Positions 1,088 to 43,818 of a stretch of 44,710 nt of DNA are shown piece after piece. Location of the stretch: assembly GCA_030837505.1 (NCBI GenBank), contig JAUPKJ010000041.1, forward strand, positions 1 through 44,710. The letters are read 5' to 3'. The stretch is from Actinomycetota bacterium (GTDB lineage: Bacteria > Actinomycetota > Actinomycetes > Actinomycetales > Kineosporiaceae). How positions within the stretch are numbered: the first letter of the stretch is position 1; every line of letters begins with the position of its first letter. A model generated the notes under the pieces. The model ran no database searches. It was not told the DNA's origin and saw only the letters and a program-made list of their open reading frames with translations. The position numbers and the translations under genes were made by a program.

Positions 1088-4000
1088 GTGGTGAGCCGCC
1101 CGGCGGCGTCGTAGGTGTAGGTGGTGGTGTCGGGGTCGTGGCCGAGGGGGGTTGTCGTGGTGGTGGTGCGTTGCCCGAGGGTGTTGTAGGTGTGCGTGGT
1201 GGGGGTGGTCAGGGTTCCGCTGTGGGTGAGTTGCCCGGCGGCGTCGAACAGTTGGGTCGTTGTGGGGGTGTTGGTGAGGTGGCCGGCATTGTCGAAGGTG
1301 TAGGCGCCGGGGGCGTCGCCGCCGGTGACGGTGTTGATCCGGGCCAGTGGGTCGTAGGCGTAGGTCCGGGTGACCGGGTCGCTCTGGTTGGTCTGGTCGG
1401 TTTCCTGGGTGAGCAGGCCGGCGTCGTCGTAGCCGTAGGTCAGGTCCAGGACGGTGGTGCTGGTGGTGGCCGCGGTGGTGGCGGTGAGGTCTTTGGTGGC
1501 GTTGTAGGTGTTGGTGGTGGTGACGCCGTTGGGGTAGGCCAGGGTGGTGAGGGTGTTGTCCGCGGCCCAGGTGTGGGTGAGGGTGCGGTCGGCCCAGTCG
1601 GTGACGGTGGTGAGCCGGTCGGCGTTGTCGTAGTTGCGGGTCAGGGTGTGGCCGTCGGGGTAGGTGATGGCGGTCAGGCGGCCGGCGTGGTCGTAGGTGT
1701 AGCTGGTGGTGGTGCCGTCGGGCCCGGTGGTGGCGGCGGTGCGACCGTCGGGGTCGTAACCGGTGGTGGTGGTACGGGCGAGCGGGTCGGTGGTGGCGGT
1801 GAGGCGGCCGGCGTCCTCGTAGGTGTAGGTGGTGGTGTGGCCGGTGCCGTCGGTGTCGGTGAGGAGGTTCCCGGCCAGGTCGTAGGTCCAGGTGCCGGTG
1901 GTGGTCAGGGGGCTGGTGGTGCCCTGGTCCTGGCGGGTGCGGCGGCCGAGGGAATCGTGGACGGTGAGGGTCCGGTGGCCGTCGGGGTCGGTGACGGTGG
2001 TGGGTCGGCCGAGGTCGTCGTAGACGGTGGTGGTGGTCTTCCCGCGGGCGTCGGTGACCGTGGTGGCCTGCTCGGCCGGGTCGTACCCGGTGGTGGTGGT
2101 GTGCCCGGCCGGATCGGTGACCGTAGCCCGGTGTCCGGCGTCGTCGTAGCCGTAGTGGGTGGTGTGGCCGAGGGGGTCCGTGGTGGTGGTGAGCCGGTCG
2201 GCGGCGTCGTAGCCGTAGGTGGTGGTGTGGCCGAGGGCGTCGGTGACGGTGGCCGGGCGGCCGTTGTCGTCGTAGGTGCTGGCCGTGGTGGTGGTGTCGG
2301 GGCGGGTGACGACGGTGGGGTTGTTCTCGGGGTCGTGGTCGGTGTGGGTGTGGCGGTTGTTGGCATCGGTGACGTCGGTGAGGTTCCCGGCGGCGTCATA
2401 GCCGTAGCGGGTGGTGTGGCCCAGGGCGTCGGTGACGGTCTCGGGTTGCCCGTGACCGGTGAAGTCGGCGTAGGTGGTGGTGTGGTCGGCGGGGTTGCCG
2501 TCGTGGGTGTTCCCCGCGGGGGTGACGGTGGTGGTGGCCCAGCCGATCGCGTTGTGGCTGGTGGTGGTCTTGCGGCCGGTGGGGTCGGTGACCGAGGCCG
2601 CCGCACCGTTGGCGTCGTAGGTGTAGGTGGTGGTCTTCCCCCGCGGGTCGGTCACGGAGGTGACGTCCCCGGGGTGGCTGGTGTCGGCGTAGGTGTAGGT
2701 GGTGGTGGCCGTTGACGAGGTGCCGGTCAGGGGCCGGGAGACGGTCAGGGGTTGCCGCTGGCGTCGTAGGTGTCGGTGGTGGTGATCCCGGCCGGGTCGG
2801 TGACGGTCAGCGGCTCGTTGAGGTTGTTGTAGGTCGTGGTGGTGGTCCGGCCTAGGGCGTCGGTGGTGGTGAGTTGGTTCCCGCCGGCGTCGTAGGTGGC
2901 CCGGGTGGTGTGGCCCAGGCCGTCGGTGACGCTGGTCCGGCCGGCGGTGACCGGGTCGTAGGTGTAGGTGCGGGAGGTGGCCGCGGGGGTGCCGGCGCCC
3001 TGGACCTCCCGGGTGAGCAGGGCGTTGAGGAAGGTGTAGGTGTCGGTGTTGCCGGCCGGGTGGGTGACGGTCGTGGTGTTCGTGCCGGTGGACGCGTTCG
3101 TGGTGTAGGCGAAGGCGATGGTCTTGCCCCGCCGGTCGGTCTGCGAGGTGACCTGGCCGGTGGTGGGGCTGTAGACGGTGGTGACGGTGTTGCCGCGCGG
3201 ATCGGTCATCGAGGTCAGGCGGTGCGCACTGTCGTAGCCGAAGCCGGACGTGCCGGAGCCGGCGTCGACGACGCCGGCCAGGTTCCCGGAGGCGTCGTAG
3301 GAATACGTGACGGTCCGCGGCAGCGGGTCGGTGACTGTCTTGATGCGGTCGCTGGCGTCGTAGGTGAACGTCAGCGCGCGCCCGGACGGGTCGGTGACGG
3401 TGCTCATCCGGCCGCTGCTGTAGGCCAGGGTCGTGGTGTAGCCGTTGCGGTCCCGGATCGCGGTGAGTTGCCCCGAGGAGTTGAACGTGTAGGCCAGGCC
3501 GCGGCGGACGACGTAGGTCCAGGCGCCGTCCCCGCCGCGGGTCAGGGTGGCCAGCGTGGTGGAGCCGGTGAGGTAGCCGCCGGCCCGATCGGGGTAGAAC
3601 ACGGTCTCGGCCCCGTTGGCCTGCCGGATGGTCACCTTCCCCGAGGCCGGCTGCCCCGTGGTGGTGTCCACGGTCAGGTGCCAGTCGTAGGAATCGGTCC
3701 ACCCGTACCCCAACCGCCCCGCGATCGTGGACCGGCGGGTGTCGTAGGTCCGGGTGAACTCCAACGGGACCCCGCGGCCGGCCACGGTCAGGTCGGTCGC
3801 AGACTCGAACAGGTCACCGGTCGACAGATCGACCGGGTCACCGGCGGTCGGGGTGCAACCGGTGACCTGCGCACAGTTGTACCCTCCTGCCCCTTGCATT
3901 CCCGTCGCCCCGATCGGCAGGGCCTCGCTGAGGCGGAACAACTTCAACCGGGACGAGTCCATCAGGTACAGGGCGTTGTCATACACCCCGATCCCGGTGA

Positions 4001-6005
4001 TGTTGGTGGTGACGGTCCCGGCCATCGGACCGGCGCCGGCCAGGCGCACGTCCCGGACCGCGTGCGTGGTCTTGGCGAACCGGATCACGCCGCCGTCGTT
4101 GGACCCGGCGTACAAGTAGTCACCCGCGGAGACCAACGGAGCCTCGTACTGCAGGGGTGCTGGGGTGGTGTTGCGTGAGGTGGTCTGCGTGGCCACAGCC
4201 GTCGCGGTCCCCGCGGCGGGGTCGATCCGGAACAGCGCCGAACAGCCCGATTGGCTGTTCGGGCAACTGGCCCGCGCGGTGGCCCACAGCGATTGGGAAT
4301 CCGCTGCCAGCGCGTTGACCCGAGGGTACTGCTCCGGGTAGCTCGAGGGCAGGGTGACCACATCAACCTGCGCACCGGTGACGGAGTCAATACTCACCAC
4401 CCGGTTACCGATCGCAGCGTAGAGCCTTCCGCCCGGCCCGACGGTCAGGTCACCGAACTCCTTGCCCAGGGCGGTGGTGGACAGGGTCGAGATGGCGCCG
4501 GTGGCCAGGGACATCCGCCGCAGCGCCACCGCGTACCCGTAGTAGTAGGAATCCGACCAGTACAGGAAGGTGCCGTCGCTGGCCAGGTGATCTCGGGGGC
4601 TCAGCGACGCCGCCAGCGGGTTCTGGTTGTCGGTGGCACCCGACACCCCGGTACCGGCCACGGTGGTGACAGCGCCGGTGTCCAGGTCCACCCGCCGCAG
4701 GTACCCCCCGTCCGCCACGTACCCGTAGTGGCCGACCACGGTCAGACCTGAACCGGAAGCGAACGAGGCTGCTGTGCCCGTGCCGTCGGTCCGCTCGGAC
4801 GATCCCGAACCGGCCACCACCGACACCGCCACGGACGGGAGATCGAGGGTCTGCGACCAGGCGGCATTCTGCGCCTTCGGCAACGGGGTACCCGCCGCGA
4901 GCTTGCGGATCCGGTAGTTGTACTGGGCGACGACGTACAGGTCGGTGCCGTCGGTGTCCATACCGGTGGCACCGGCGAACCAGGCCTGGCTACCGGTCCC
5001 GTCCAGATTCCCGCCGCCGTTAGTCCCGGCCACCAGGTCCCAGGACCCGTCGCTCTTACGGATCCGCATCATCGGCTGGGCTCCGGCGTACAGGTAATCC
5101 CCGGCGGACACCAGCGGCGACCGCGGCTGGGCAGGGCGCGGCGCGACCATGACCCCAGCACTGGCGGTCAGCACCGTGGTCGCGGCCCCCGTGGACGGAT
5201 CCACCTTCACGATCACCGAACAGTTGCCGCCGGTATCACCGCCGACGCAGTTGGTGCCCGCCACCACCCACAGAAAATCGGCGTCCGCGGCCAGGGCAAC
5301 CGGCACCGGCCCCTGCCCCGCGTACGTCGTCGGTAGGGAGGTCCGCAGGGTGGTGGTGGCTCCGGTGCCCGGGTCCAGCCGCACGATCGCCGCGCCGACA
5401 CCGGTGTACAGGCCACCGTCCGGGCCGATGGTCAACCCGAGCGGGGAATCCGGCCCGGTCGGGGTCCACAACGTCGACACCGCCCCCGTGGCCAACGACA
5501 TCCGCCGCACCGGGCCCGCACCCGAACACGAGTCCAGCCAGTACAGGTAACTCCCGTCATTGACCATGCCCTGAGCAGTGCTGCCCAACCCCGCCCGCGA
5601 CGCATCGACATTGTCGTAACAGCCGGTCCAACCCGACCCCGCGACCGTCGTCACCACCCCGGACGCCAGACCCACCCTGCGAATACGCCCGGCCTCGAAC
5701 ACATACCCCCACCCGCCGGCCACACTGACCGCCGACGGAAAGTTGAACGACGCCCCCGACCCCGTACCGTCCACCCACGACCCCGAACCGTTCCCCGCCA
5801 ACGTCGACACCACCGCCGGCGCCAACCCCACCGTCGTGGACCACCCCGACGGCTGAGCGCCACCCAACACCGCTGCCTGGGCCGTCGGAGCAGCCGACAC
5901 GCCAGCCAACGACACGATCACGGTCAGAACAGCCCCGACAGCAGAAACCCTCCGCCCCCAGCGAAAAGCCCCGAACGCCCCAACAGTCCGACTCCTGACG
6001 GCCAC
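1088..6005 (-). pseudogene. Secreted RHS/YD-repeat protein with tandem beta-propellers, IS-truncated and frameshifted
   Basis: This is the N-terminal and repeat part of a large secreted RHS-type (polymorphic-toxin-like) protein. The chosen start is GTG 6005, with AGGGGAG five bases upstream, giving a signal peptide of about 44 residues that ends near APTAQA. Two homologous NHL-type propeller halves follow at about residues 60-380 and 395-715. Each begins with a GxxDGTGxxASF motif and contains PLVSAGDYLYAG. A DUF6531 segment with GDPVDLSTGDLFESATDL lies near residue 722. RHS/YD repeats (YDASGN, YTYDAAGRLT) run from about residue 850 to the break. The frame shifts once at 2748-2751, and the coding sequence is cut at 1088 by the IS. 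The conserved end of the RHS cage and any toxin tip would lie beyond the IS, outside the window. As it stands it should not make a full-length product. Confidence 0.85.
2745..2751 (-). other. One-base frameshift in the RHS gene
   Basis: The upstream frame ends in DTYDASGNP followed by TGA at 2747-2745. RHS homology continues at once in the -1 frame as LTVSRPLTGTSS. The break sits in a run of four C on the coding strand (GGGG at 2748-2751). A fifth C would restore GNPLTVSRP. This is either a true deletion in a homopolymer or a sequencing error. Confidence 0.8.
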
Positions 6006-6873
6006 AGCCGCTCCCCTCACAGGTCCACAGTCCGCCCACCCCCGGATGAGCCCACCAGAGCATGAACACAGGAATTCCGATGGGAAGTCCAACTCGAGGG
6101 CCACACAAAGGGCTGAACAACTACTGAAGGCGTGAACTACCCGCGAAAACCGATCCCCAAGGACACACCCATCCGGGTGAATAAGTGGCTGAGCGTCCCC
6201 GAACTCGCCTTTCATGGCTGACGGGAAAGAATCTAGGGCGGACCGACTCCGACGACAACGCTCGATCTCCATCATGACCTGGAAAACACCTGACCGATGG
6301 ATATGAACCACCCACGCGGCCCATCGACTGCCATAACAGCTGTCTCAATCGATGAGGGCATCAGATGCCACCATCAGCGCTTGATCCAAAATCAACCAGA
6401 ATCAGCAGATATATCCATCAATAATGCCGAGGAGCCGGGCGGAGTCCCACCCCCGGCTACTCGGCACATGGTCCGCGTACTCTTCGCCCTCCTGGACGAC
6501 GGACCCGCCGTCAACATCGTCATCCCCACCGAACTCGTGTGCCTGGTCGTGCCTGACCGGTAGTGGAGAGCACGGATGACTTGACTGCCCTGTCCAGCCC
6601 AGTCCGCCCACACAACGTGACCGCTCGGCTCCGGCTCACTCGAAGAGACTTGCACCCGGTCAATGTTGATGGCATCCCCCTGGGGAACCGTGCGCATGAT
6701 GACATGGTCGCTGAAACTCGCATACGCTCACTAGACCGTATGGTCGACCTCCACGACGACCGATCTGTCACGCATCGGGCTCTCCCCGCCCTGCCACTGA
6801 CTCCACGACGGGCCGCCCACAACCGTCCCGCTCGGGGACTCTCGTACCGGTGGCGCCGTCGCCGGCCGGCGGG
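6006..6873. other. Intergenic spacer between RHS gene and aroE, no gene recognised
   Basis: This stretch of about 870 bp has visibly lower GC content than its surroundings, especially 6060-6440. It must hold the RHS promoter, but I could not place one. Short open frames exist. One on the plus strand from about ATG 6468 to 6563, whose stop overlaps the next GTG as TAGTG, has strong G/C third positions but matches nothing I recognise. Another, on the minus strand from 6611 to 6402, has an acidic C-terminus. A 12-bp palindrome, CGCCGGCCGGCG at 6860-6871, sits just past the aroE stop and could be part of a terminator. Confidence 0.5.
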
Positions 6874-21665: not shown

Positions 21666-22310
21666 CGTTCCTCCAGTTGTGTCCGGCGCCGGGACGGCGG
21701 AGCGTGACTCCCCGGGCCGGTCGGGAAGCGGGCCTTCACAACTGTTCTTCCCCCGTGACGGCTTCCCCGAACCTCTCAGAGGAAGTCGTCGGGGTCCGGG
21801 TTCGTCGCGCGACGGCTTCATCACGATGAGCTCAGGAACCATCACGGAAGCGTTCGAGGTGTTCCCTGCAGAGCTGAAGTGTTCCACTGCCGTCGCAGGG
21901 GACTCCGGTACCGTCCGACGGACTCAGATACTCGCCGACGGGTTCAGGCCCTCGCCGACGAACCCCGGTGTCCTCCCAGGGAACCCGGTGCCTTTCGAGA
22001 GACCCCGGTGCCTTTCGAGGGACCCCGTGGCCCTTCGAGGGGATCCGACAGAGCCACCGGGCCCTTCGTCCCCGCTGTGACTTTGTCCCCAGGAACTCCA
22101 CAGAGCACCTCCCCGTCCCGCTACCGCACTAGAGTCAGAGACACGGACGCCGCCCGGGCGGCACCACAGCCGGCGGGGCGACCGGCACCCGCACGACAGA
22201 CACGACCGGCACGACAGACACGACCCGCACGACAGACACCGGCACGACAGACACGACCGGGCAGAGGCGGACTGGCAGGGGACGGACGGGACAGGGGACG
22301 GACGGACACC
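21666..22310. other. Divergent spacer with tandem repeats, PPTase to HelD
   Basis: About 645 bp between divergent genes. Two repeat tracts are visible: three imperfect copies of a roughly 23-bp unit containing CGGTGCCTTTCGAGGGACCC at about 21985-22045, and a near-perfect 18-bp array at 22191-22259. The plus-strand frame of helD stays open from 21879, so the second array might be translated as an Arg/Pro/Gln-rich N-terminus. No promoter could be placed with confidence. Confidence 0.55.
22191..22259. repeat. 18-bp tandem repeat upstream of the helD-like gene
   Basis: Copies of GCACGACAGACACGACCG start at 22191, 22209 and 22242. A 15-base shortened copy at 22227-22241 lies between the second and the last. 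All lengths are multiples of three and the frame into helD stays open. Confidence 0.95.
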
Positions 22311-25300
22311 ATGGGCGCCGACAGCGCTGCGCTGGAAATGGACCAGCGCCACCTCGACCTCGCCTGGGAGGCCAGGGAGCGGCTTCGGCGTTCCCTGGCC
22401 GACGCCCCCCGTCAGGCCAGCGGCTGCGGGGCCGGTTCGCGGGGCGTCCGTCGCGGCGTCGACCGCTGGCTGGAAAAATTCGCAGACCCCGACGAGCCCG
22501 TGGCGATCGGCCGTTTCGACACCGAGGACGGCGAGCGCCGGTACATCGGGAAGCAGTCGATCCACGACGAGGCCGAGAACCTCCTGGTCGTGAGCTGGCA
22601 GTCGGCGGCGGCGCGGCCGTTCTACGAGGCGACGGTCGACGATCCGCGGGGGGTCCGGCTCGTCCGCCGGTTCGTCATGGAGAAGAACCGGATCGTCGAC
22701 GTCGAACAGATCCTGTTCGCAGACCTGGCCCAGCGGGTCGAGGAGTTGCTGGGGCGCTCGGGTGAGGGCCCCGGCCCCACGGAGCCGCAGGATCTGGACG
22801 ACGTGCTCCTGCGGGACCTCGAACGCGGGTGCACCGGGCAGATGCGGGACGTGGTCCAGACGATCCAGGCGACCCAGTACGGTCTGATCCGTTCTCCTCT
22901 CGACCGGTTGCTGCTCGTGGAGGCGGGACCGGGGACGGGCAAGACCGTCGTGGCCCTCCATCGGGTGTCGTGGCTGTTGTTCAATCACAGGGACCGGTTG
23001 AGCCCGGACCAGGTGCTGGTCGTCGGCCCCAATCCGACCTTCACCCGGTACATCCGGTCGGTGCTGCCGATGTTGGGCGACGCCGACGTCCAGCATGTCG
23101 ATCTGCGGGGCCTGGGCCCTCAACCGGCCGGTTCCCGCGAGGAGTCCGCCGATCTGGCCCGTGTGAAGGGCGAGTTGCGCATGGCGGGGCTGCTGGCCAG
23201 GGCCCTGCGCGCCAGGGTACGGGTTCCGGACGCCGCCGCTCCCCTGCGGGTCGGTCAGGCCGCCGGGGCTCCGGGGTTCTCCGCCGACGAGGTCGAGGCC
23301 GCTCTGGCACGTTTTCTCGCCGCGGGTCCCTACGCAACGGCCAGGGGGTCCTTCCGCGCCTGGTTCGTCGAGGAGACCCGGCGCCGCGTGCGGGCGGCGC
23401 AGCAGCATCGGCGGGCCGTCACCCCTCCGTCGAGTGCTGACATCGATTCCGCCGTGAACCGGGTGTGGCCGTCGCTGACGCCTCAGGCTTTCCTCCGGGA
23501 CCTGTTGGGGTCCCGGCAGCGTCTGCTGGCCGCCGCGGGGGACGATTTCTCCGCCGGTGACATCGGGCGGCTCCTGCGGGCCCCGTCCGACAAGCTCTCC
23601 GAGGAGCGGTGGACCCTGACCGACGTCGCTCTCCTCGACGAGGCCGAGGCCCTCATCGGAGGCAGCCGGCGCACGTACCGGCACATCGTGGTCGACGAGG
23701 CCCAGGACCTGTCCCCCATGCAGTTGAGGTCCCTGAGGCGCCGCTGCGCCACGGGCTCGTACACCGTCGTCGGGGACCTGGCCCAGTCGACGGGGCCGTG
23801 GCACAGGTCTTCCTGGGACGATCTGATCGAGGCGCTCTCGGTCGCGCACCCGGTGTCGCGTCGGGAGCTGCCCCACGGGTACCGCGTTCCCCGGCAGATC
23901 TTCGAGTTCGCCGCGAGGCTGTTGCCGCTGGCAGCCCCCGGGGCGGTCGGGCCGGTACCGGTGAGGGACGGCCCCGAGGAGCCCGTACTGTTGCACAGCG
24001 AGCCGGACGGCGTGGCGGAACGAGCCGTCGCCCAGGCCAGGGACTACGCGGGCCGGGGGCTCTTCGTCGGCATCATCTGCCCCGGGTGCCGACGCCGGGC
24101 CGTCATGGACCAACTCGCGCGCGCCGACGTACGGTGGAGCGATGTCAGCCGGGGGGACCTGGGGCTGTCGATCAATCTGGTCCGTCCGGAGGAGGCCAAG
24201 GGGCTGGAGTTCGACGCCGTGGTCGTCGTCGAACCCCATGAGATCGCGACCGGTGGACCGCAAGGACTGCGGCTGCTGTACGTCGCGTTGACGCGAACCA
24301 CTCAATTCTTGTCGGTGGTGCACTCCCGATCGCCCCTACCGATCCCAGGAGGCACCAGGACGACGTCAGACCATGACCGCGTACGAGCGAACCCGGAGAC
24401 ACAGGACCTCATGCCTTCCGAGCTCAGGCCTTCAGAGCTGCCCAACCCGGACCGATCCCCTCGCAAGGAGGCCCAGACGGACCAGTCCGGCGAGGGCCGC
24501 CGCCTGCCCACGACGCAGGAGCTTCCGCCCCTGCCCCCACCACTTCTGCCTCCCACGGACGAACCGCTCGGCGAGCGTCGGCCCCGTCCGGCCCCGGGCC
24601 GGTACCCGGAGGACGACGGCGCCGGGCGTTTCGCCTCCCCCTCGCCGGGCGACCCCTCCGGCGCCGGTGGCCTGCTCGGGTCGTTCGGGCGCCCGGACCA
24701 GGGCGCCCACACCGCCCGGCCGGAGCCACGGCCGGAGACCCGTTCCGAGGCCCGTTCCGAACTCCAGGAGAAGCCGGCCCCGGCCCGACGGCGCGCTGCT
24801 GTGCGCCGACCGAACTCGGTCCCGGTCGCCGACGGCCGACCCGACGGCGACCCGTCCGCCGGCCCGGGGCGGATGACGCCCCGGGGCGGGCAACGGCAGC
24901 GGGACATCACCGGGGTGCGGACCGCCTCGCCCCGACCGGCTCCGCAGGAGCCCGCCGTGGGCGCGGACGCCTGGCAGGGCGAGTCCGCCCCCGCGGCGCA
25001 GCGTCAGCGCCTGATGGACGCTCCCCGCCGCCCCACCGCGGACGGGCCGGACCCGCAGGAGGACGATCGGGGGTTCGCCGGGGCCGACTTCTCGCCGCAG
25101 GAAGCCGCGGAGCCCCCCGCGGGCGGAGCGGGGGGTCTGCCCGGCGGGCAGTTCTCCCAGATCGCCCAGGAGTCCGCCCTCGGTCGGGCGCAGGCCCCCC
25201 GGGGGAACGACCCCCTGGACACCCGGATGCCCTGGTACGCGCCGGACGAGGGTTTCGACCCGGGAGACTGGCACCACGAGTCCTCCGAGCCCGGCCCCCG

Positions 25301-26144
25301 GGACGAGCAACGGCCCCCCGCGGGTCCCGTCGGCCCCTCCGACCAGTACGAGGCACCTTCCGACCAGTACGAGCAGGCGGACGAGGACGGGGCCTTCTTC
25401 GAGCCCTTCTCCGACGCCTACCCCGGCAGTCCCACCGCGCAGGAGAGCCGCGAGTGGTTCGGCGAGGGGTTCTCCGGCGGTCAGCGGGCCGAGGAGGAGC
25501 CGATGCCCTCCCTCCCGCTCCCGATCAGGCAGAACCCTGCCGGGCAGACACCGACCGGGCCGGATCCCGCAGCCGGCCCGATCCCCGGCGGCCCGATCCC
25601 CGGCAGCCCGTTCCCCGGCGGTCGGCAGTCGGCCGGTCCGGGACAGGGCATGTTCTCCGCCGGGCGTCCCGGCCCCTTCCGGGGACCGGCCCCGGAAGCG
25701 CGCGTCGATGCTCTCGCGCACGATGCGGACCTCTCGCCCGACGCGGGCCTCGACCTTCCGCGCCCGACCGACGGCGGCCCGGCTGTTCCCGTCGTTCCCG
25801 TCGCTCCCGTCGGACGCGAGCAGCGCCCGGACGCCCGACGGATCGACGTCCGTCAGCTGGGCGACCGGAGGGGACCCGGCAGCTCCGACCCGGGCGAGGG
25901 CAGGGACTTCCACCGGCTCGGCGGCCCGGACGACGGGCTGTACCGGGACCGACCCGTCCCCGGCGCCGGGGACGAGGCCGCCACCATTTGTCTGGACGAT
26001 CTGCACGAGGCCGTCGCGGCCAGTATCGCCCGGCAGATCGCGCAGGCCCTGCGGACGGCGGCGGCCCCGGGGCTCTGGCCCACGGTCCTGGAACTGCTCG
26101 ACGAGGAACTGGGGGGGCACGGTTCGGCCGACGGGACGGCCTGA
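22311..26144 (+). CDS. HelD-like SF1 helicase / RNA polymerase recycling factor with long disordered tail
   Basis: HelD-family proteins are UvrD-like ATPases that pry RNA polymerase off DNA; some actinobacterial members (HelR) also displace rifampicin. The family-specific N-terminal segment is present, with IGRFDTEDGERRYIGKQSI and ARPFYEATVDDPRGV. The helicase motifs are Walker A LVEAGPGTGKTVVALHRVSW (about residue 206), VVDEAQDLSPMQ (about 460), VVGDLAQST, LPHGYRVP, AKGLEFDAVVVVEP and LYVALTRT (about 656). The N-terminal arm before the YIGK region is short, about 30 residues before the first conserved block. After about residue 680 comes an unusual tail of roughly 600 residues rich in P, G, D, E and R, ending in a helical segment (DDLHEAVAASIARQIAQALR). 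Total length is 1277 aa against about 700-780 for typical HelD. The ATG at 22311 is the most plausible start, but the ribosome binding site is weak. Confidence 0.85.
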   Translation: MGADSAALEMDQRHLDLAWEARERLRRSLADAPRQASGCGAGSRGVRRGVDRWLEKFADPDEPVAIGRFDTEDGERRYIGKQSIHDEAENLLVVSWQSAAARPFYEATVDDPRGVRLVRRFVMEKNRIVDVEQILFADLAQRVEELLGRSGEGPGPTEPQDLDDVLLRDLERGCTGQMRDVVQTIQATQYGLIRSPLDRLLLVEAGPGTGKTVVALHRVSWLLFNHRDRLSPDQVLVVGPNPTFTRYIRSVLPMLGDADVQHVDLRGLGPQPAGSREESADLARVKGELRMAGLLARALRARVRVPDAAAPLRVGQAAGAPGFSADEVEAALARFLAAGPYATARGSFRAWFVEETRRRVRAAQQHRRAVTPPSSADIDSAVNRVWPSLTPQAFLRDLLGSRQRLLAAAGDDFSAGDIGRLLRAPSDKLSEERWTLTDVALLDEAEALIGGSRRTYRHIVVDEAQDLSPMQLRSLRRRCATGSYTVVGDLAQSTGPWHRSSWDDLIEALSVAHPVSRRELPHGYRVPRQIFEFAARLLPLAAPGAVGPVPVRDGPEEPVLLHSEPDGVAERAVAQARDYAGRGLFVGIICPGCRRRAVMDQLARADVRWSDVSRGDLGLSINLVRPEEAKGLEFDAVVVVEPHEIATGGPQGLRLLYVALTRTTQFLSVVHSRSPLPIPGGTRTTSDHDRVRANPETQDLMPSELRPSELPNPDRSPRKEAQTDQSGEGRRLPTTQELPPLPPPLLPPTDEPLGERRPRPAPGRYPEDDGAGRFASPSPGDPSGAGGLLGSFGRPDQGAHTARPEPRPETRSEARSELQEKPAPARRRAAVRRPNSVPVADGRPDGDPSAGPGRMTPRGGQRQRDITGVRTASPRPAPQEPAVGADAWQGESAPAAQRQRLMDAPRRPTADGPDPQEDDRGFAGADFSPQEAAEPPAGGAGGLPGGQFSQIAQESALGRAQAPRGNDPLDTRMPWYAPDEGFDPGDWHHESSEPGPRDEQRPPAGPVGPSDQYEAPSDQYEQADEDGAFFEPFSDAYPGSPTAQESREWFGEGFSGGQRAEEEPMPSLPLPIRQNPAGQTPTGPDPAAGPIPGGPIPGSPFPGGRQSAGPGQGMFSAGRPGPFRGPAPEARVDALAHDADLSPDAGLDLPRPTDGGPAVPVVPVAPVGREQRPDARRIDVRQLGDRRGPGSSDPGEGRDFHRLGGPDDGLYRDRPVPGAGDEAATICLDDLHEAVAASIARQIAQALRTAAAPGLWPTVLELLDEELGGHGSADGTA

Positions 26145-35649: not shown

Positions 35650-38600
35650 CTAGTCCACCAACCTGATGATGTGCGCGGCCCCCCGTGAGGAGGGGCCGCC
35701 CAGCGGGTCCCCCCGGCCTGTCCGCGGTCCTGCTGCCGGGGTCGGATCAGGGGTCTGGCGGGCACCGTCCGAGGCCGGGAGCTGGTCGGTCGCGTTCTTG
35801 GGCGCGTCTGCCGGCGTGGGGCCGGGGTCCCGGGGGCAGGGGTGGATCCGCATCCGGGTCAGAAGCTTCCACAGCGGGGCCAGGGCGGCCTGCCGGTCGA
35901 AGGCGTACTCCGAGGCCCTCACGCGCCAGATCTCCCACCCGACGCGACGCAGTTGCCGTTCGCGCACCAGGTCCGATTCGAGCTGTTCGGGGGTCGAGTG
36001 CCAGGCGTCACCGTCGCACTCGACGGCCAGGCGGCCGCGCTCCCCGGTGATCACCAGGTCGATCCGGCGGCCGTTGCTCTCGACCTGGGGGGTCACGTGG
36101 TAGCCGCGGGCCAGCACGTCGAGGTAGACCCGCTGTTCGAAGAGGCTGTCGAAGGGCTCGCACGCGACGTCGGGCAGCACCAGAGGCCCCCGGGGACCGG
36201 GTCCGGCCGGCGGCCGGTTCACCAGGTGGGTGAGGTAGGAGTGCCGCAGGTCGGCGGGGCTGAGGGAGTCGGCCGTCACCGAGTGGAACAGCCACACCTG
36301 GTCCTGGGCCCGGGAGGCCGCCACGTTGAACCTGCGCCGGTACTCCAGTCGGGTCAGGGAGGTCGTCCGGGTCCCCGGGGCGATCACCATCGACAGGAAG
36401 ACCACGTGCCGTTCGTCCCCCTGGAAATCGGGGGGCGTGCCCACCAGGAGCCTGCGATGCTCCTGCTCGGTCCGGGGCAGGCGGCGCAGCAGGGCGTTGC
36501 GGATCAGGTCGGCCTGGGCCGTGCCCTGCAACACGATCACTCCGAAGGTCAGGCCCTCGTACGCCGGGTCCCGCGAACAGGCGAGCACCCGTTCCACGAG
36601 GGCCTCGGCCTCCACCTGGTTGCGCAGGGTCGTCCCGTGGCCCTCGGTGTACGCGCCGGGCACGTGCACGGCGCGCAGCGGGTCCAGGCGGGCCGTGCCG
36701 AAACAGCGCAGCGGGACGAGGGGCTCGTCCCGGTAGAACATGTGGCTGGACCATTCGATGATCTCCGGCATGCACCGGAAATGCTCCCGGAGGCGCACCA
36801 CCTGCCCGAACCGGGTCCGCAGGACGGAGAAGAGGCTGGACCGGGGGGTGAAGGCGACCCGCAGCCAGGCCGGAAGGTCCCCCAACAGTTCGTCGAGCCG
36901 GGAGAAGATCGGTCCGAGGGCCCCGAGGGCCGTCTCGGGCGGGGTGCACTGCCGGTCGTCCCCGACCACGATCACTTTCGGAGCCAGCCACAACAGGAAC
37001 AGGCTCTCCAGCCCGGCCTGGCTGGCCTCGTCCACGATCACGACGTCGAAGGACTCCCGGGCCGCCGGCACCGTCGACAGCACGTCCGACAGGGGCATGA
37101 TCCAGGCGGGGACGGCGTCGCGCGCGTCGAGCATCGCGTCCCTGGCCGCGGCAGCGAACCGGGCCGCGTGCTTGCCCTGGCCCTTGCCGCGGGCGTCGAG
37201 GGCGGCCTGGTAGGAGCGCAGGGCCGCGACCTGCCGGGCGGTCATGCGCTCCAGACAGTGCTGCCAGGCCCGTTCGCACGCCAGGTCGGCCGTCAGCCGT
37301 TCGACCTGGCGTTCGACGACGCCCAGTTCCCGTTCCAGGGACTCCTCCAGACCCTCCTCGCGCTGGGACTCGAAGAACTCCCGGGCCCTGGCCCATCCCC
37401 AGGCCCGGGGCAGCCGGGTCAGCCTGGCGCGCCACGCGGGATCGTCGGGGTCGCAGCTCAGGGCCCGGGCCAGCACCGGGTGAGCTGCGCGCAGCAGACC
37501 CAGCAGGTGGGCGCAGCGGTCCCGCCGCTCCCGCGCCCGGCGCAGATCCTCGCGGTCCCCGTGCAGACGGCGGTAGGCCACGGGGTCCCGGTCCCGGACG
37601 GCCCCGGCCGCCCGCGCCGCCGCCCGCGCAGCCTCCCGTGGTGTCCCCGGCGCGTCGGCCCGGTGTTCCAGTTCCTCCGCGAGGCGGTCGACGGCCTCGG
37701 TCGCGCGGTGGGCCGCGAGTCGGCGCCCCACGGCGATCTGCAGCTCCGCCAGGGGCCCGCGGCGGTCCGGGCCGGCGCCGAGCAGGAGGTCACCGATCTG
37801 GATCCCGCGGATCCGGCGGGCCACGAGCAGGTCGTCGAGCCGCAGCGCGGCCCGGCGCACCTGCTCGGTCCGTTCCAGTTGCGCCGCGAGGTCGGCCAGG
37901 AGCCCGACCCTGCGCGGCAGGGGCCACTCGGCGGGAACCTCTGCCCCGACCTGGGCCCACCGGTGGACCAGACCCGCTGCGACGATCTCGGCCCGCAGGT
38001 GCAGGCACAGGGCCCTCAGCTGCTCGGGGGCCGTGGCGCTCGCCCCGTCCACACGGCAGCGGCCGACGGCGCGGCGGGCCGCCCGGGTGGCGGCAGAGGG
38101 CAGGGCCCGCCGCACGGACCCCGTGCCGACCTGCACCAGGTGGGTGGCGTGACCGTGGAGGGTCAGGAGGTCCTCGTGCGCGCGGGGCGCGCCGGCGGGT
38201 CCCCCGCCCGCCCCACCGGTGTTCCCCGTCAGCTCGACGACGTGCAGTCCCACCCCGTCGAGGGCCTCGACGGCCTCGGTCACGCGGTGGGCCTGGCGGG
38301 CCAGCAGGTCCCACAGGGTGGTGTTGCGGCCCTCGGCGGCGTCGAGGACGGCGCGGGCCCGCCAGTCGGACGGGTCCTCGACGGGCGGGGTCCGGGCCGC
38401 GGCGTCGTCGAGGGCCTGCAGCGCGCTGAGCAGTTCCCGCAGGTCCGACGCGCTCAGCGCGCCCGACGGTCCCAGCGCGCCCGACGGTCCCAGCGCGCCC
38501 AGGCCCGTGGTGCCCGGGGGCTCGCAGGCGTCGGCGTCGGCCAGGCGCTGCCGTTCGACGGCCAGCAGGTCCTCCAGGTCCGCCGGTGGGGGCAGGTCCG

Positions 38601-40575
38601 CCATCGGGCGCAGGTCCGCCGGTGGGCGCAGGCCAGGGTCGGCAGCGCACGCCCCGTCCCCCGCCCCTGACCTGTTCCCCGTCCCGGGCCCGTCCCCCGT
38701 CCCGGACAGGGGCCCCTCCCCGTGCGGCCCCTCGCGCAGCAGGTCCAGCAGTTCCAGGGCCTCGTCCTCGGACAGCGGCGGGTGCTCGTCGGACGGGACC
38801 CTGTCCTGGGGGCGCGCCGACCGGGGCCCGAGCTCGTACAGCCATCCGTCCTCTGCGCGTCGCCGGGCGAGCCGCTCCGCGATCCGGGACAGCGTCCCGC
38901 CGTAGTCGTCGGCCACGCGGGGATGCTCGTAGCTCTGGGCCTCCCGCAGAGCCCTGAGCTGCTCGCCGAGGAGGGAACGCCGTTGCAGCGCCCGGTGCCG
39001 GGCCGCCTCGACCCGCCGGATCTGCGCGGCCCTGGTCGGGGCGTGGTGGATGGCCCGTTCCGCAGCGAGGGCCGCCACGCTCCCGCCCGGTTGCGCCGAA
39101 CCGTTCCGGGAGACGTCGGTGAGGCTCACGCACAGCCGACGCATCTGCGGCGGCAGCTTCTCGTGCAGAACGCGCAACGCCTGCGCCTTCTGACTCGTGA
39201 CCAGGACCCGTTGCCCCTGGGCGAGCAGGGCGCACACGAGGTTGGCGATGGTGTGGGTCTTGCCGGTCCCCGGGGGGCCCTCGACGACGACCCCGCTCTC
39301 GTGCCGCAGACAGTCCAGGATCCGGGCCTGCTCGGCGTTCGTCGGCAGACAGAACAGAGGCTCCGGCTCCGCCGGACGTCCGGGTCCGTTCCCGGGGCCG
39401 GCACCCGAGGCGTCCGGGTGCCCGTCGCGCGAACGGGCCCGGGGAGGTTCGGCGTCGGGGGACTCCACGAGCCTGGCCAGGCCCGAGGGCGGCCGCCCGG
39501 TGAGGGCCAGGGAACGCAGCATCGCGTCGTAGTGCTCCAGCAGGGCGCCGCGGCCGCGCCGCCGCAGCAGGACGACGGGCGCCAGGTCGATCCGGGGAGT
39601 GCCGGTGACCTGCCCGGCGGCCACCCACGACCCGTGGTACCCCCGGGGCGCGTCCAGGGCACCGCGCAGCCAGGAGGACAGCACCCGGCCGGTGCCGGGG
39701 CCCAACGGCTCGGTCCGCTGCGAGCGCAGCTGCTCGTGCAGGGTCCGGACCCCGTCGGCCCGGTAGCCCCGGCAGCCCTGGAGGAGGGCCGCGTCCTCCA
39801 GGCAGGTGAGGGCGTCCTCGGGCAGGCGCAGGTCGATCGTGCCGTCGGCCCGGTCGACCTCCAGGTGCACCCCGGTCGTGAGCAGGGGGTGCCGGATCCG
39901 TTCGCCCTCGGCGGTGCGCAGGCACAGCAGGCCCGTGGCCAGCACCAGTTCGAGGCAGTCCCCCTCCTGGGCGAGGCGCTGGTGCGCGGTGTGCAGGGCT
40001 TCGTAGCACCGGTGGTGGGCCGCGCGTTCCCGGTCCTCGACCGCCCACCGCTGCCAGGTGGGCAGCCAGTCCTCGTAGGCCCGCACGACCTGCGGCACCG
40101 TTTCCCGGGACACCTCCGGCAGGTCGCAGAGGTCGGCCTGTGCTTCCTCCACCTCCCCGGTTTCCTCCACCTCCCCGGCCCGGCGCGGTCCGCCCGGCGG
40201 GGCGGGGAGAGGTCCGCGCTCGCGCAGGGGCGGGGCTGTGAGCCGGGAGTCGTCCCGGTCGGCGAGGCTGACCCAGCCGGTCAGGACGGCCGGCAGACCC
40301 GGGGAGGGGTCGATCTGCGCAGGGGGCAGTCTCAGGACGAGGTCCCCCGGTCCGGCCCGGGTGTGGACCGGGATCTGCTCGGGCAGGTCGGTGAGCCACA
40401 GGGCGGTCGGGTAGCGCTCGACGTCCCGGACGCAGGGTGTGCGGGCCAGGGACAGTTCCCGCAGGAACCGCACGAGTCGACTGCACCGGTCGGCCAGGGC
40501 CCGGTCCTCGGGGCCGGCCGGCTTCCGCCGGTCCCCGGGTCCCGGACCGTCTCCGACCGACGACGTCGCACGCAT
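35650..40575 (-). CDS. Large SF1 helicase with C-terminal MTES_1575/DUF559-like nuclease domain
   Basis: This 1641-residue protein combines a DNA2/NAM7-type superfamily 1 helicase with a PD-(D/E)xK-like nuclease. Motif I is [18 protein letters not shown] (about residue 427). A long helical insert with low-complexity stretches follows. Motif II is VVIVDEASQAGLESLFLLWL (about 1177), then VVGDDRQCTPPE, GTPPDFQGDERHVVFLSMV, and motif VI RRFNVAASRAQDQVWLF (about 1415). The C-terminal domain (about 1480-1570) has GYHVTPQVESNGRRIDLVI, LAVECDGDAWHS and RQLRRVGWEIWRVRASEY, the pattern of very-short-patch/MTES_1575 nucleases. The first 420 residues match no domain I can name. ATG 40575 (a GTG lies just before it) has no clear ribosome binding site. 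Related helicase-nuclease fusions are linked to anti-phage or DNA-quality functions; the role here is inferred. Confidence 0.85.
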   Translation of the reverse strand: MRATSSVGDGPGPGDRRKPAGPEDRALADRCSRLVRFLRELSLARTPCVRDVERYPTALWLTDLPEQIPVHTRAGPGDLVLRLPPAQIDPSPGLPAVLTGWVSLADRDDSRLTAPPLRERGPLPAPPGGPRRAGEVEETGEVEEAQADLCDLPEVSRETVPQVVRAYEDWLPTWQRWAVEDRERAAHHRCYEALHTAHQRLAQEGDCLELVLATGLLCLRTAEGERIRHPLLTTGVHLEVDRADGTIDLRLPEDALTCLEDAALLQGCRGYRADGVRTLHEQLRSQRTEPLGPGTGRVLSSWLRGALDAPRGYHGSWVAAGQVTGTPRIDLAPVVLLRRRGRGALLEHYDAMLRSLALTGRPPSGLARLVESPDAEPPRARSRDGHPDASGAGPGNGPGRPAEPEPLFCLPTNAEQARILDCLRHESGVVVEGPPGTGKTHTIANLVCALLAQGQRVLVTSQKAQALRVLHEKLPPQMRRLCVSLTDVSRNGSAQPGGSVAALAAERAIHHAPTRAAQIRRVEAARHRALQRRSLLGEQLRALREAQSYEHPRVADDYGGTLSRIAERLARRRAEDGWLYELGPRSARPQDRVPSDEHPPLSEDEALELLDLLREGPHGEGPLSGTGDGPGTGNRSGAGDGACAADPGLRPPADLRPMADLPPPADLEDLLAVERQRLADADACEPPGTTGLGALGPSGALGPSGALSASDLRELLSALQALDDAAARTPPVEDPSDWRARAVLDAAEGRNTTLWDLLARQAHRVTEAVEALDGVGLHVVELTGNTGGAGGGPAGAPRAHEDLLTLHGHATHLVQVGTGSVRRALPSAATRAARRAVGRCRVDGASATAPEQLRALCLHLRAEIVAAGLVHRWAQVGAEVPAEWPLPRRVGLLADLAAQLERTEQVRRAALRLDDLLVARRIRGIQIGDLLLGAGPDRRGPLAELQIAVGRRLAAHRATEAVDRLAEELEHRADAPGTPREAARAAARAAGAVRDRDPVAYRRLHGDREDLRRARERRDRCAHLLGLLRAAHPVLARALSCDPDDPAWRARLTRLPRAWGWARAREFFESQREEGLEESLERELGVVERQVERLTADLACERAWQHCLERMTARQVAALRSYQAALDARGKGQGKHAARFAAAARDAMLDARDAVPAWIMPLSDVLSTVPAARESFDVVIVDEASQAGLESLFLLWLAPKVIVVGDDRQCTPPETALGALGPIFSRLDELLGDLPAWLRVAFTPRSSLFSVLRTRFGQVVRLREHFRCMPEIIEWSSHMFYRDEPLVPLRCFGTARLDPLRAVHVPGAYTEGHGTTLRNQVEAEALVERVLACSRDPAYEGLTFGVIVLQGTAQADLIRNALLRRLPRTEQEHRRLLVGTPPDFQGDERHVVFLSMVIAPGTRTTSLTRLEYRRRFNVAASRAQDQVWLFHSVTADSLSPADLRHSYLTHLVNRPPAGPGPRGPLVLPDVACEPFDSLFEQRVYLDVLARGYHVTPQVESNGRRIDLVITGERGRLAVECDGDAWHSTPEQLESDLVRERQLRRVGWEIWRVRASEYAFDRQAALAPLWKLLTRMRIHPCPRDPGPTPADAPKNATDQLPASDGARQTPDPTPAAGPRTGRGDPLGGPSSRGAAHIIRLVD
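38455..38500. repeat. 18-bp tandem repeat in the helicase-nuclease gene
   Basis: CAGCGCGCCCGACGGTCC occurs at 38455-38472 and 38473-38490, with a partial third copy. On the minus strand it encodes a GALGPS-type repeat in a linker within the long helical insert. Confidence 0.9.
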
Positions 40576-40651
40576 CACGCATGATGATCGCAGAGCCCAC
40601 CGACGGGCGCTGCCCGAGACGGGCGGGACGGGGGCCCGTCCGGGCGCGCGT

Positions 40652-41743
40652 TCAGCGGTCGTAGCAGGGATCGCGTTCGGCGGTGCGCAGGACCTCGACG
40701 GTGAAGCACCGGCGTCCGATCACCACGCGCGCGCCGTCGGGCACGACGTATCGCTGCCAGGGGGTGCATCGCAGGGCCAGCCCCCCGGGGCCGACGATGG
40801 CCGTGCCGTTGGTGGAGTTCTGGTCCTCGATCCACAGACCTTGGTGGTCGGTCCCGAAGACCAGGTGCGTCTTGGAGACCGACAGCTCGGGGTCCAGGAC
40901 TCTCAGCAGTTGGGGATCCGGGGGGCGGTCGGGGTCGGTCCGCGGGTCCGTGAAGGCGCGCGGGGCCCGGCCGATCAGTCCTCGGGGGCCGGCCTCCAGG
41001 GGGTTGCCCCAGTCCGGCCGGATGATCACACGGGGGGCGGTCTCGCAGAAGCGCAGGTCGAGTTCGTGGGGACGGTGATCGACGGGTTCCTGAGCTGGTC
41101 GGGCCCCGGGGGCGAAGGGGTCCGGGAGACAGGGGTCGGAGAGACAAGGATCAGGGAGGGAAGGATCCGGGAGGCAGGGATCCGGCGAGAAGGCCTCCGG
41201 GGTGAAGGGATCGGGCGCGAAGAGTTCCAGGGGGAAGGCCCCTTGGGCGAAGGGGTCCGGTTCGGCCGTGTCGGGGGCGGGGTTCGCCGGGGACGGGTGG
41301 CAGTCCCCGAGCAGGGAGTCCTCAGATACGCCGTCGCAGGGCTCCCGACGGTCGTCCGGTGGCCGGGGGCTCCGGCCCGCGAGCATGTCGGACCAGCTGC
41401 TCTCCCCGCCCAGTCCCATGGGCTCGGCGAGGATCGCGGGCCCCGGACCGTTCGCGAGCGCCGCGGCCAGGTCCGCCGGCAGGGGGCCGGAGATTCGCAC
41501 GACGATCCCCCGCAGGTCGTCGTCGACGAGGACGAGGGTGCGTTCGATCTCACGGGACCGCCGCAGTAGGCGCGACAGGGGGCTGCGGCCCGTGTCCACG
41601 GGGCGCAGGAAGGTCAGTGCTCTGCCCACCGGTTGTCCTTGACGGAAACCCGCTGCGGTGAACTGTTCGACACAGATCCGGACCGCTTCGGCGGCCGTGG
41701 GCAGACTGCAGGCCAGGACTTCCTCACCAGCGACCCAGGGCAT
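40652..41743 (-). CDS. FHA-domain protein with SseB-like N-terminal region and acidic repeat linker
   Basis: A C-terminal forkhead-associated domain (about residues 255-355), which reads phosphothreonine, shows GLIGRAPR, ELSVSKTHLVF (the S-x-x-H core), DQNSTNGT and VVIGRRCFTVE. The N-terminal 120 residues form a compact alpha/beta region with RTLVLVDDDLRGIVVRISG that I cannot name with certainty. Between them lies a Pro/Asp-rich linker made of PDPF/PDPC-type pentapeptides (LPDPSLPDPCLSDPCLPDPF). ATG 41743 is preceded by GGAGGAGACC. The helicase-nuclease gene starts 76 bases downstream, so the two are probably one transcript. No kinase gene is seen in the window. Confidence 0.8.
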   Translation of the reverse strand: MPWVAGEEVLACSLPTAAEAVRICVEQFTAAGFRQGQPVGRALTFLRPVDTGRSPLSRLLRRSREIERTLVLVDDDLRGIVVRISGPLPADLAAALANGPGPAILAEPMGLGGESSWSDMLAGRSPRPPDDRREPCDGVSEDSLLGDCHPSPANPAPDTAEPDPFAQGAFPLELFAPDPFTPEAFSPDPCLPDPSLPDPCLSDPCLPDPFAPGARPAQEPVDHRPHELDLRFCETAPRVIIRPDWGNPLEAGPRGLIGRAPRAFTDPRTDPDRPPDPQLLRVLDPELSVSKTHLVFGTDHQGLWIEDQNSTNGTAIVGPGGLALRCTPWQRYVVPDGARVVIGRRCFTVEVLRTAERDPCYDR

Positions 41744-41839
41744 CTCCCGGTCTCCTCCCACCGCCTCGCCCCCGCCGAACCTTGAATCCACATGCGGTAA
41801 TGGTGATGCTACTGAGCGTGAAGTATGGCTGCGAGAAGG

Positions 41840-41867
41840 CGTTTCGAAACGTCCGACACGCTGTCGG
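41840..41867. promoter_or_regulatory. Paired palindromes between the two FHA genes
   Basis: CGTTTCGAAACG (41840-41851) and CCGACA-CGC-TGTCGG (41853-41867) lie side by side in a lower-GC gap of 144 bp. They follow the stop of the upstream FHA gene and precede the start of the next, so they could act as a terminator or as an operator. A weak TTTCGA/CATACT pair on the minus strand (spacing 16) could be a promoter. Confidence 0.4.
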
Positions 41868-41887
41868 GTCCTTCCTCACCCTCCCGG

Positions 41888-42862
41888 TCATCCGTCCTGC
41901 CCGTCCCGGAGCCCGGGTTCCCTGTACACGAAGGACACCTCCGGGGACAGCGAGACCACGGCCCCCGACCGCAGAGGGAAGGGACGTTCGGGTTCCAGGG
42001 ACCGGGGCGTACAGCCGGGCAGCGCCACCACCGTGCCGTTGCGCGACCGCAGATCGACGGCGACCGTCTGCCCGTCCTGCCATCGGACCTCGACGTGGTT
42101 GCGAGAGATCACCGGGCTGTCCGCGCCGACCCGCAGGGGCAGCGGCAGCCTGTCCAGCGGGACCCGGTGCGCCGACGGCGCGCGGCCGATCCTCACGGTC
42201 CCGCACACGGGGACCGTCTGTCCCGTGGAGAACGTGAGGGTTCCCCGGGCCGTCCCCTGCCCCGCCGGCCGGCGGTGTTCCGATGACCGGTGGTGATCTG
42301 ATGACCGGTGGTGTTCGAGTGGACGGTGGAGTTCGAGTGGACGGTGGTGTTCCGGCGGCCGGTGGTGCGCGGGACCGGCCGATCCCATCCACCAGGTCAC
42401 GGCGTCGGCGAGGACCACGCCGCGCAGCAGGGGCAGCTCCGGGGTCGTGGCGCGGGGAGGATCGGGCGCGAAGCCGGGGGCCGGGGCCCGCGCGAGGACG
42501 ACGGCCAGGGGCGCCCCGACGGTCTCGTCGGCCCAGGTGCCGCTCCCGGGGGCGGCCAGCAGCCGTTCCCCGGCCGGGGTCATGACCCCGGCCGTCGTGC
42601 CCGGACGGGCGACGACCCTCACCCAGTCGTCCCCCCGGACGGCGACGGCGCAGGGGACCTCACCGTTCGGGCGCCCGCCGCCCATCGTCCGGTTCACGGC
42701 GTCCAGGAGTTGTTCGGGCGCGCCCCCGGCGCGAACCAGCGACCAGGCCCTGAACAGTCTGCGTTCGGAGCAGCCGTCCCCGACCAGAAGGACGGCTGTT
42801 CCCCCGGCGGCGACCCACCAGTTCCCGGGCCGGTACCGGACCTCTCCCGTTGTTCCAGGCAC
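41888..42862 (-). CDS. FHA-domain protein with His-rich repeat linker
   Basis: This protein has 324 aa. The N-terminal domain (about 1-150: VRYRPGNWWVAAGGTAVLLV, ending in a W-rich region) is of a type found in actinobacterial FHA proteins encoded beside PP2C genes. A His/Arg/Pro repeat linker (EHHRPLELHRPLEHHRSSDH) spans about residues 170-205. The C-terminal FHA domain has VRIGRAP, SPVISRNHVEV (phospho-binding core) and DLRSRNGTVV. The start GTG 42862 has GGGAGG eight bases upstream but lies within the open frame of the PP2C gene, giving a same-strand overlap of 169 bases. The His-rich linker could bind metal, but it may simply be a repeat expansion. Confidence 0.8.
   Translation of the reverse strand: MPGTTGEVRYRPGNWWVAAGGTAVLLVGDGCSERRLFRAWSLVRAGGAPEQLLDAVNRTMGGGRPNGEVPCAVAVRGDDWVRVVARPGTTAGVMTPAGERLLAAPGSGTWADETVGAPLAVVLARAPAPGFAPDPPRATTPELPLLRGVVLADAVTWWMGSAGPAHHRPPEHHRPLELHRPLEHHRSSDHHRSSEHRRPAGQGTARGTLTFSTGQTVPVCGTVRIGRAPSAHRVPLDRLPLPLRVGADSPVISRNHVEVRWQDGQTVAVDLRSRNGTVVALPGCTPRSLEPERPFPLRSGAVVSLSPEVSFVYREPGLRDGQDG
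42270..42370. repeat. Short tandem repeats encoding the His-rich linker
   Basis: Related units such as GTTCGAGTGGACGGTGGA and GATGACCGGTGGTGTTC follow one another on the plus strand. They encode the EHHRPL/DHHRSS-type units of the FHA protein on the minus strand. Boundaries are approximate. Confidence 0.75.
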
Positions 42863-43818
42863 TCGCGTTCCCTCCCGCCGTCCCGCCGCCGTCCTCCCCC
42901 GCGAACCGCCTGTCGTCCCCCGTCCGTGCTCCCCTGCCGTCCGTCGGCGCCGTCCGGGTCCCGCAGCGGGTCCGGCGCGAGCGGCGCCCCGTCGCCGTAC
43001 CACGGCGTCGGCCCGGGACCGATCTGCGGCAGGGCCCCCGTGTCCGGGTCCCACCGGACGGCCCCGCTGCGGGGATCGCTCAGGTCGAGCACGCTGTCCT
43101 CGGGATCGCCGACGCTCACGACCACGGCGGTCACGTTGTCCCGCCCCCCGGCCTCCAGAGCCGCCCGGACGAGCGCTCCCGCAGCCGCCTGGGGGTCGCT
43201 CTCCTCCCGCAGGATCCGGCCGATCCGGTCGTCGTCGATCTCGTCGGTCAGGCCGTCGGTGCACAGCAGGAACTTCTCGCCGGCCTCGGGCGGGAAGAGC
43301 CAGAAATCCGGCTCCGTGCTGTCCCTTCCCCCCAGGACCCGGGTGATGACGTGCCGTTCCGGATGCTGCCGAGCCTGTTGGGCGTCGAGGAAACCGGCCT
43401 CGACCATCTCCTGCACGAAGGAGTGGTCCACGGTGATCTGATGCAGCCGTCTCCGGTGGAACCGGTACAGGCGGGAGTCGCCCACGTTGAAGGCCAGCCA
43501 GTACTGCGCACCGGCCTGTTCCACGAGCACCAGCCCGACGGCGGTCGCGCCCAGTCCGCGGACCCGTTCGTCGCGCTCGGACGCGGCCCGGAGCGTCGTG
43601 TGGGCCCGTGCCAGGACGGACTGGACGTCGACGGGGACGGGGTGGGCCGTCAGCTCGTGGAAACTGTCGACGACCAGGTGCGAGGCCAGTTCACCGCCGG
43701 CGTGGCCCCCCATGCCGTCCGCGACCACGAACACCGGGAGTCCTGCCAGCAGGGCGTCCTCGTTGCAGTGCCGCACCCTGCCGGTGTCCGTGGCGCAACC
43801 CCACCTGACAGCGGCCAT
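42694..43818 (-). CDS. PP2C-family serine/threonine phosphatase
   Basis: This metal-dependent phosphatase removes phosphate from Ser/Thr residues and would counter a Hanks-type kinase. All PPM motifs are present in the first 240 residues: RHCNEDALL, VVADGMGGHAGGELAS, GATAVGLVLV, NVGDSRLYRF, DHSFVQEMVE, VITRVLGG, LLCTDGLTDEI and GGRDNVTAVVVSV. ATG 43818 is preceded by GGAGGTGAGG. No transmembrane helix is seen. The frame runs on about 130 residues past the catalytic domain as low-complexity Gly/Arg/Asp sequence and overlaps the next gene by 169 bases. The last part may be run-through caused by a lost stop codon rather than real protein. It starts a transcript with the following FHA gene. Confidence 0.88.
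   Translation of the reverse strand: MAAVRWGCATDTGRVRHCNEDALLAGLPVFVVADGMGGHAGGELASHLVVDSFHELTAHPVPVDVQSVLARAHTTLRAASERDERVRGLGATAVGLVLVEQAGAQYWLAFNVGDSRLYRFHRRRLHQITVDHSFVQEMVEAGFLDAQQARQHPERHVITRVLGGRDSTEPDFWLFPPEAGEKFLLCTDGLTDEIDDDRIGRILREESDPQAAAGALVRAALEAGGRDNVTAVVVSVGDPEDSVLDLSDPRSGAVRWDPDTGALPQIGPGPTPWYGDGAPLAPDPLRDPDGADGRQGSTDGGRQAVRGGGRRRDGGRERECLEQRERSGTGPGTGGSPPGEQPSFWSGTAAPNADCSGPGRWFAPGARPNNSWTP

Follow-up and report, generated by a model that had tools for sequence, protein, structure and literature searches.

Four genes on the reverse strand of the window (the whole stretch of 44,710 nucleotides that was analysed) encode a PP2C phosphatase, two FHA proteins (FHA1 and FHA2) and an SF1 helicase-nuclease. 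Their adjacency is most likely coincidental and does not mark a new system. Very probably, the row consists of two adjacent but unrelated units: a PP2C–FHA1–FHA2 trio of the PFNA kind and a stand-alone helicase-nuclease. A striking four-gene row, which is not a conserved system, is thereby removed as a false lead. The features of the row are as follows.

42694–43818, reverse strand: PP2C Ser/Thr phosphatase of the signalling trio, 374 aa (Pfam PP2C_2, E 3.6e-13)
41888–42862, reverse strand: FHA1, with an N-terminal YRPGNWW domain of unassigned fold and a C-terminal FHA domain (Pfam FHA, E 8.7e-09)
40652–41791, reverse strand: FHA2, a protein with a C-terminal FHA domain (Pfam FHA, E 7.1e-05)
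40572–40660, reverse strand: G+C-rich hairpin without a T-run in the FHA2–helicase gap, a possible boundary (RNA fold −45.9 kcal/mol, z −1.94)
35650–40578, reverse strand: SF1 helicase-nuclease, 1642 aa from GTG or 1641 aa from ATG at 40575 (Pfam AAA_11 and AAA_12)
35863–36141, reverse strand: MTES_1575 (Vsr-type) nuclease domain, helicase aa 1480–1572 (Pfam E 2.7e-28; 98.3 bits against a cut-off of 38.2)

The four genes and the gaps between them

The four genes look intact in their open reading frames and Pfam profiles. Pfam and the translations confirmed the identities and the common strand that the preliminary description of this DNA had given, and its 1641-aa SF1 helicase agrees with the ATG start and with the AAA_11 and AAA_12 matches. 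The nuclease had been described as MTES_1575/DUF559-like; the MTES_1575 (PF18741) part is borne out, whereas DUF559 matched the helicase C-terminus at E 0.054 only. Genes were called with a simple in-house caller that uses G+C by codon position. Chance reading frames are excluded because of the curated profile matches and the conservation of motifs in 59 aligned helicases.

The PP2C translation contains NEDA, DGMGG, GDSR, DGL and GRDN, which we take, together with the FHA residues in the window translations, to be family signatures. The phosphatase is 42–50% identical over 230–285 aa to the PP2Cs of PFNA-type clusters. A PADLOC match of PP2C to PDC-M21C (40.9 bits) was rejected as a generic phosphatase match. 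FHA1 starts inside PP2C, with an overlap of ~169 bases. This early start is supported because relatives align from FHA1 residue 10 onward; the N-terminus was matched in two related loci (L185, E 0.003; L192, E 9.3e-06), and so was the FHA domain. The AlphaFold2 model of FHA1 (mean pLDDT 46.9, 8 sequences) gives no assignment of the N-terminal domain.

Since the genes lie on the same strand with small gaps, co-transcription of all four is possible. A possible break had been placed between the two FHA genes. The palindromes at 41840–41867 are indeed present there; however, this gap folded no better than shuffled sequence (z −0.73), which does not favour a break at this site. FHA2 and the helicase are spaced by 73 bases, and the fold in this gap was equalled by 9 of 200 shuffles. 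It is a hint only because it has no T-run and because the terminator scan called no terminator in the FHA1–FHA2 gap or the FHA2–helicase gap. Any break in the gene row sits more likely between FHA2 and the helicase. Thus, the suggestion that the row may be two units stands, but not its division into PP2C–FHA and FHA–helicase, because relatives keep PP2C, FHA1 and FHA2 together and the helicase apart. Two units divided between the FHA genes were rejected on the gap folding and the composition of the trio in relatives.

The surrounding synteny was also compared. A good FKBP match was obtained in five genomes (G002, G003, G004, G007 and G009), in all of which Tex was on a different contig; the comparison therefore does not show the block to be an insertion between formerly adjacent genes. 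G003 keeps FKBP next to an AMP-ligase relative, and the helicase is absent there.

Separate neighbourhoods of the helicase and the signalling genes

A scan of genome contigs yielded 78 related helicase loci, from which records very close to the window were possibly left out; 74 contained a helicase match at E 1e-10. Many loci are cut by contig ends, and the neighbour counts cover only the available sequence. In the available DNA of the 78 loci, including that of the closest relative, L005 (Candidatus Frankia meridionalis), tblastn with FHA1, FHA2 and PP2C of the window gave no match at E <= 1e-3, and an FHA pattern search found none. A PP2C pattern was matched in eight loci, three of them in frames of >1200 aa, and tblastn with the window PP2C confirmed none. 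The helicase was absent from all 20 FHA2-like loci of the same order. Two genomes of the window's family carry fragments of the trio and lack the helicase there, L103 with FHA2 and PP2C and L104 with FHA2 and FHA1. The 13 family genomes covered include no second one from the window's genus.

Against its own reading, the preliminary description had set an FHA–helicase adjacency limited to very close relatives, with unrelated neighbours elsewhere. This is the outcome here: the adjacency was not conserved outside the lineage (FHA/PP2C in 0/78 helicase loci, helicase in 0/20 FHA2 loci), and the suggested control of the helicase by phospho-signalling is unsupported, with no co-occurrence in either set. 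One four-gene operon conserved elsewhere was rejected, as the neighbourhoods of the helicase and FHA2 relatives are separate. A search of literature titles found none on an FHA–PP2C–helicase system.

A lineage-specific system, in which the FHA proteins and PP2C would control the helicase-nuclease through phosphothreonine binding and dephosphorylation with the kinase encoded elsewhere, is very improbable. The common strand, the short FHA2–helicase gap and the intact motifs in all four genes are in its favour, but the available DNA of the helicase loci holds no FHA1, FHA2 or PP2C match, none of the FHA2-like loci holds the helicase, and the fold in the FHA2–helicase gap is strong. It is likewise highly unlikely that a PFNA-type PP2C–FHA–FHA trio recruited the helicase-nuclease in this Frankiaceae lineage and holds it under direct phosphothreonine control by FHA and PP2C. 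If this were true, a DNA-cutting helicase controlled by the trio would be a combination met in no other locus examined.

The signalling trio and the PFNA-type cluster

Of 119 genomes in the order, 39 had a match to FHA2, the own genome included. The 20 FHA2-like loci fetched were compared with the ten proteins of L185, which is itself one of the 20. Besides FHA2 (20 loci), they contained genes for MoxR (15), FHA1 (14), FtsK (14), FN3/Ig (13), DUF58 (13), transglutaminase (13), PP2C (12), a 234-aa protein (11) and a Ser/Thr kinase (9). In seven loci (L178, L182, L185, L186, L188, L189 and L197), all ten genes share one strand and one order, FN3–MoxR–DUF58–transglutaminase–FHA2–PP2C–FHA1–kinase–234 aa–FtsK. 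At the other end, L180, L183 and L191 carry, besides FHA matches, FtsK alone. Pfam supported the domains of L185, where FHA1 scored 20.5 bits, just under the cut-off of 20.7, and the 234-aa protein had no match; the FN3/Ig protein of L182 was also supported. As for the loci in the window's family, the PP2C of L103 is 52% identical over 244 aa, FHA2 and FHA1 of L104 are on opposite strands, and L106 has an FHA1-like gene.

The PFNA cluster of bifidobacteria comprises pkb2, fn3, aaa-atp, duf58 and tgm, followed in some species by prpC, a hypothetical gene and fha (PMC8430577). The window contains counterparts of the accessory genes prpC (PP2C) and fha, and the relatives of the trio cluster with FN3/Ig, MoxR, DUF58, transglutaminase and kinase genes. 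From these shared genes we infer that the relatives' cluster is PFNA, although it additionally contains FtsK and the 234-aa protein. When the ten L185 queries were compared with the window, FHA2, FHA1 and PP2C matched and no core cluster gene did. The window has only PP2C–FHA1–FHA2, in that order, whereas the fullest relatives have FHA2–PP2C–FHA1. FHA2 of L185 carries an RDD domain and a zinc ribbon, and the window FHA2 is without both in Pfam; the probable equivalence of the two rests mostly on the FHA domain.

PP2C–FHA1–FHA2 is best read as belonging to a phospho-signalling cluster of the PFNA kind that is conserved in actinobacteria. The trio would be a detached piece of the actinobacterial FN3–MoxR–DUF58–transglutaminase–FHA–PP2C–FHA–kinase–FtsK cluster, and PFNA-type signalling genes occur apart from their cluster in some Frankiaceae. 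The suggestion of a remote Ser/Thr kinase is in line with the trio, as nine of the 20 loci of relatives include such a kinase in the cluster; its control over the helicase is unsupported. The putative kinase would phosphorylate threonines of partner proteins, the FHA proteins would bind the phosphorylated threonines and PP2C would reset the state.

The window was also compared with KKP, a kinase–kinase–phosphatase module (PMC11341870). Phospho-signalling by PP2C and FHA is common to both. In KKP, two kinases (with CSD and FHA) come after PP2C, an arrangement that the window does not fit: its order is PP2C, FHA, FHA, a kinase pattern searched for in the window was not found, and no cold-shock domain is among the Pfam matches. 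A KKP-like defence was rejected for the window, as there is no kinase pattern and the FHA domains are not fused to a kinase.

The helicase-nuclease family and its possible role

By its sequence, the helicase-nuclease is a member of a widespread family. The first alignment comprised the window protein and 58 relatives with ORFs of >= 1300 aa. Relatives with shorter or split frames (L014, L019, the second piece of L039, L061 and L066 among them) were left out of the first tree. Walker A, DE.SQ, GDD.Q, EH.R, FQG and NVA.SRA are nearly invariant in the 59 rows. Loss of the nuclease residues across homologues, against which the preliminary description had set its reading, was not seen: D1507, E1520 and D1522, presumably the catalytic residues, are retained in 58, 54 and 58 of the 59 rows, respectively. 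To these rows the second tree adds five from plasmids and L090. The two trees were quick ones with SH-aLRT as their only support, and the second gave a long-branch warning, with L090 and L146 among the branches concerned. The window helicase pairs with L005 (SH-aLRT 98 in the first tree and 91 in the second), and in both trees this pair is sister to a 15-row Frankiaceae group. The upstream neighbour in L005 is a SocA/Panacea-like gene, and the downstream one is what we take, from its sequence, to be an acetolactate-synthase-like gene.

The AlphaFold2 model of helicase aa 20–640 had a mean pLDDT of 80.1, with values >90 over much of the N-terminal part. A Foldseek search with this N-terminal model gave no match in the PDB at E <= 0.001. 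In the VIA structural comparison, the top row was a helicase with Z 5.8 over 89 residues, and the UPF1 rows were weak (Z 4.1–4.8, 157–161 aligned, rmsd 5.7–6.1; another at Z 3.7), the best of them at Z 4.7–4.8 having an rmsd of 5.7. With regard to the stalk helices and the 1B barrel around the first RecA domain of Upf1-like enzymes, the UPF1 matches were too weak to assign the protein. The weak rows are in keeping with the sequence matches of the helicase to SMUBP-2 and SEN1.

The stand-alone SF1 helicase-nuclease would use ATP both to move on nucleic acid and to unwind it, and the Vsr-type domain at its C-terminus would cut DNA, either in defence or in DNA repair. Considered on its own, the helicase has about an even chance of being an anti-phage protein of the same kind as PDC-S37, Hhe and ProA, inserted beside the signalling genes; this is compatible with the explanation by two units and not exclusive of it. 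The best PADLOC match was PDC-S37, a phage-defence candidate (183.9 bits in two stretches, the best at aa 1159–1584), and Hhe scored 79.7 bits. However, the best stretch covers 430 of the 1550 model positions, PDC-S37 is only a candidate, and the term was not met in the literature searched. In NCBIfam, ProA (NF058533) scored 174.5 bits and Hhe (NF042953) 113 bits, with matches spanning the second helicase half and the nuclease, but these scores are far below the equivalog cut-offs of 1500 and 2000 bits, respectively, and no DUF4011 is among the Pfam matches of the window.

The occurrence of relatives on plasmids also favours an anti-phage role; the helicase matched 395 plasmid records, none of which covers 80% of the query in one place. 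Two phage records matched it weakly. One viral match was observed (A0A8S5P0T8, E 1.1e-08). Enrichment near defence genes is unclear: PADLOC families numbered 119 in 126 genes near relatives and 93 in 109 genes of the distal control, as family counts, and the near set is thus not clearly above the control. For the near set, genes were taken from loci that are not in the Frankiaceae set, with the own paralogues L089 and L090 included and one L090 stretch left out (126/127), and the distal set was without L089 and L090. Among the matches listed, mad2 and mad3 had four members each near and two each distal, AriA had three and two, and LmuB had three near and is not among the 25 rows listed for the distal set. 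Thus, the anti-phage link of the preliminary description is plausible from the distant PDC-S37, Hhe and ProA matches, but enrichment near defence genes is not evident against the distal control.

In Frankiaceae, a related copy keeps a constant place in the chromosome, which speaks against the anti-phage role and for a different one. Much of the 15-row group shares this place. Of the 14 loci of this set with sequence upstream of the helicase, 13 have a divergent PHP-UvrD gene there (~1300 aa in L066; L004, L006, L007, L010, L012, L015, L019, L021, L022, L024, L062, L066 and L070; the exception is L013). As these relatives beside the PHP-UvrD gene may be, the window helicase is possibly, with somewhat less than an even chance, a resident DNA-repair enzyme. 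However, the window copy and L005 belong neither to the Frankiaceae group nor to its place, and PHP-UvrD has a match (229.8 bits) to the defence family GajB in its own helicase part. Since it does so, the PHP-UvrD neighbour is no proof of repair, and PHP-UvrD and the helicase-nuclease are possibly a repair pair or a defence pair.

A HEPN-like partner in related loci is a further point for defence. The own genome contains two paralogues, L089, which is full-length (1538 aa), and L090, a C-terminal piece (469 aa). At L090:8092–10391, a gene for a 297-aa HEPN-like protein comes directly after the helicase piece. The same arrangement, with a HEPN-like gene of 270–300 aa, was found in all three Streptomyces plasmids opened (L146, L147 and L148), where the partners are 39–45% identical and the helicases group with L090 (SH-aLRT 97, with the long-branch warning). 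At E <= 1, the partner model matched only these four loci; the Tsukamurella and Variovorax plasmid loci had no HEPN-like partner, nor did the window have such a gene downstream of the helicase. Two of the four partners match DUF4145 at scores under the cut-off (E 0.0095 and 0.0011); the HEPN reading is based on these matches and on an RN...H motif, which we take to be a HEPN mark. Possibly the helicase-nuclease and the HEPN-like gene form a defence unit of two genes. Near the pair on the plasmid of Streptomyces chartreusis (L146:15582–22485), a TIGR02678/TIGR02679/TIGR02680/DUF2397 set was observed.

The helicase-nuclease family thus has at least two other recurrent neighbours, the divergent PHP-UvrD gene and the downstream HEPN-like gene. 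The shared Frankiaceae place is marked by two further genes: across 70 helicase loci, the ten nearest genes include one of the acetamidase family in 17 (in 16 of them at +1) and one that is presumably kgd, judging from its sequence, in 14. Both roles of the helicase are retained: the profiles, the plasmids and the HEPN-like partner point to defence, whereas the Frankiaceae place, like the PHP-UvrD gene beside it, points to a resident role, possibly in repair.

Elsewhere in the window, a 1421-aa frame at 21879–26144 on the forward strand, in a stretch of ~70–76% G+C, has separate UvrD-like helicase matches and adjoins a phosphopantetheinyl transferase gene. An RHS-repeat/DUF6531 protein (2745–6311, reverse strand) is encoded near an integrase-core (rve) gene (2–1057, forward strand) at the window edge.
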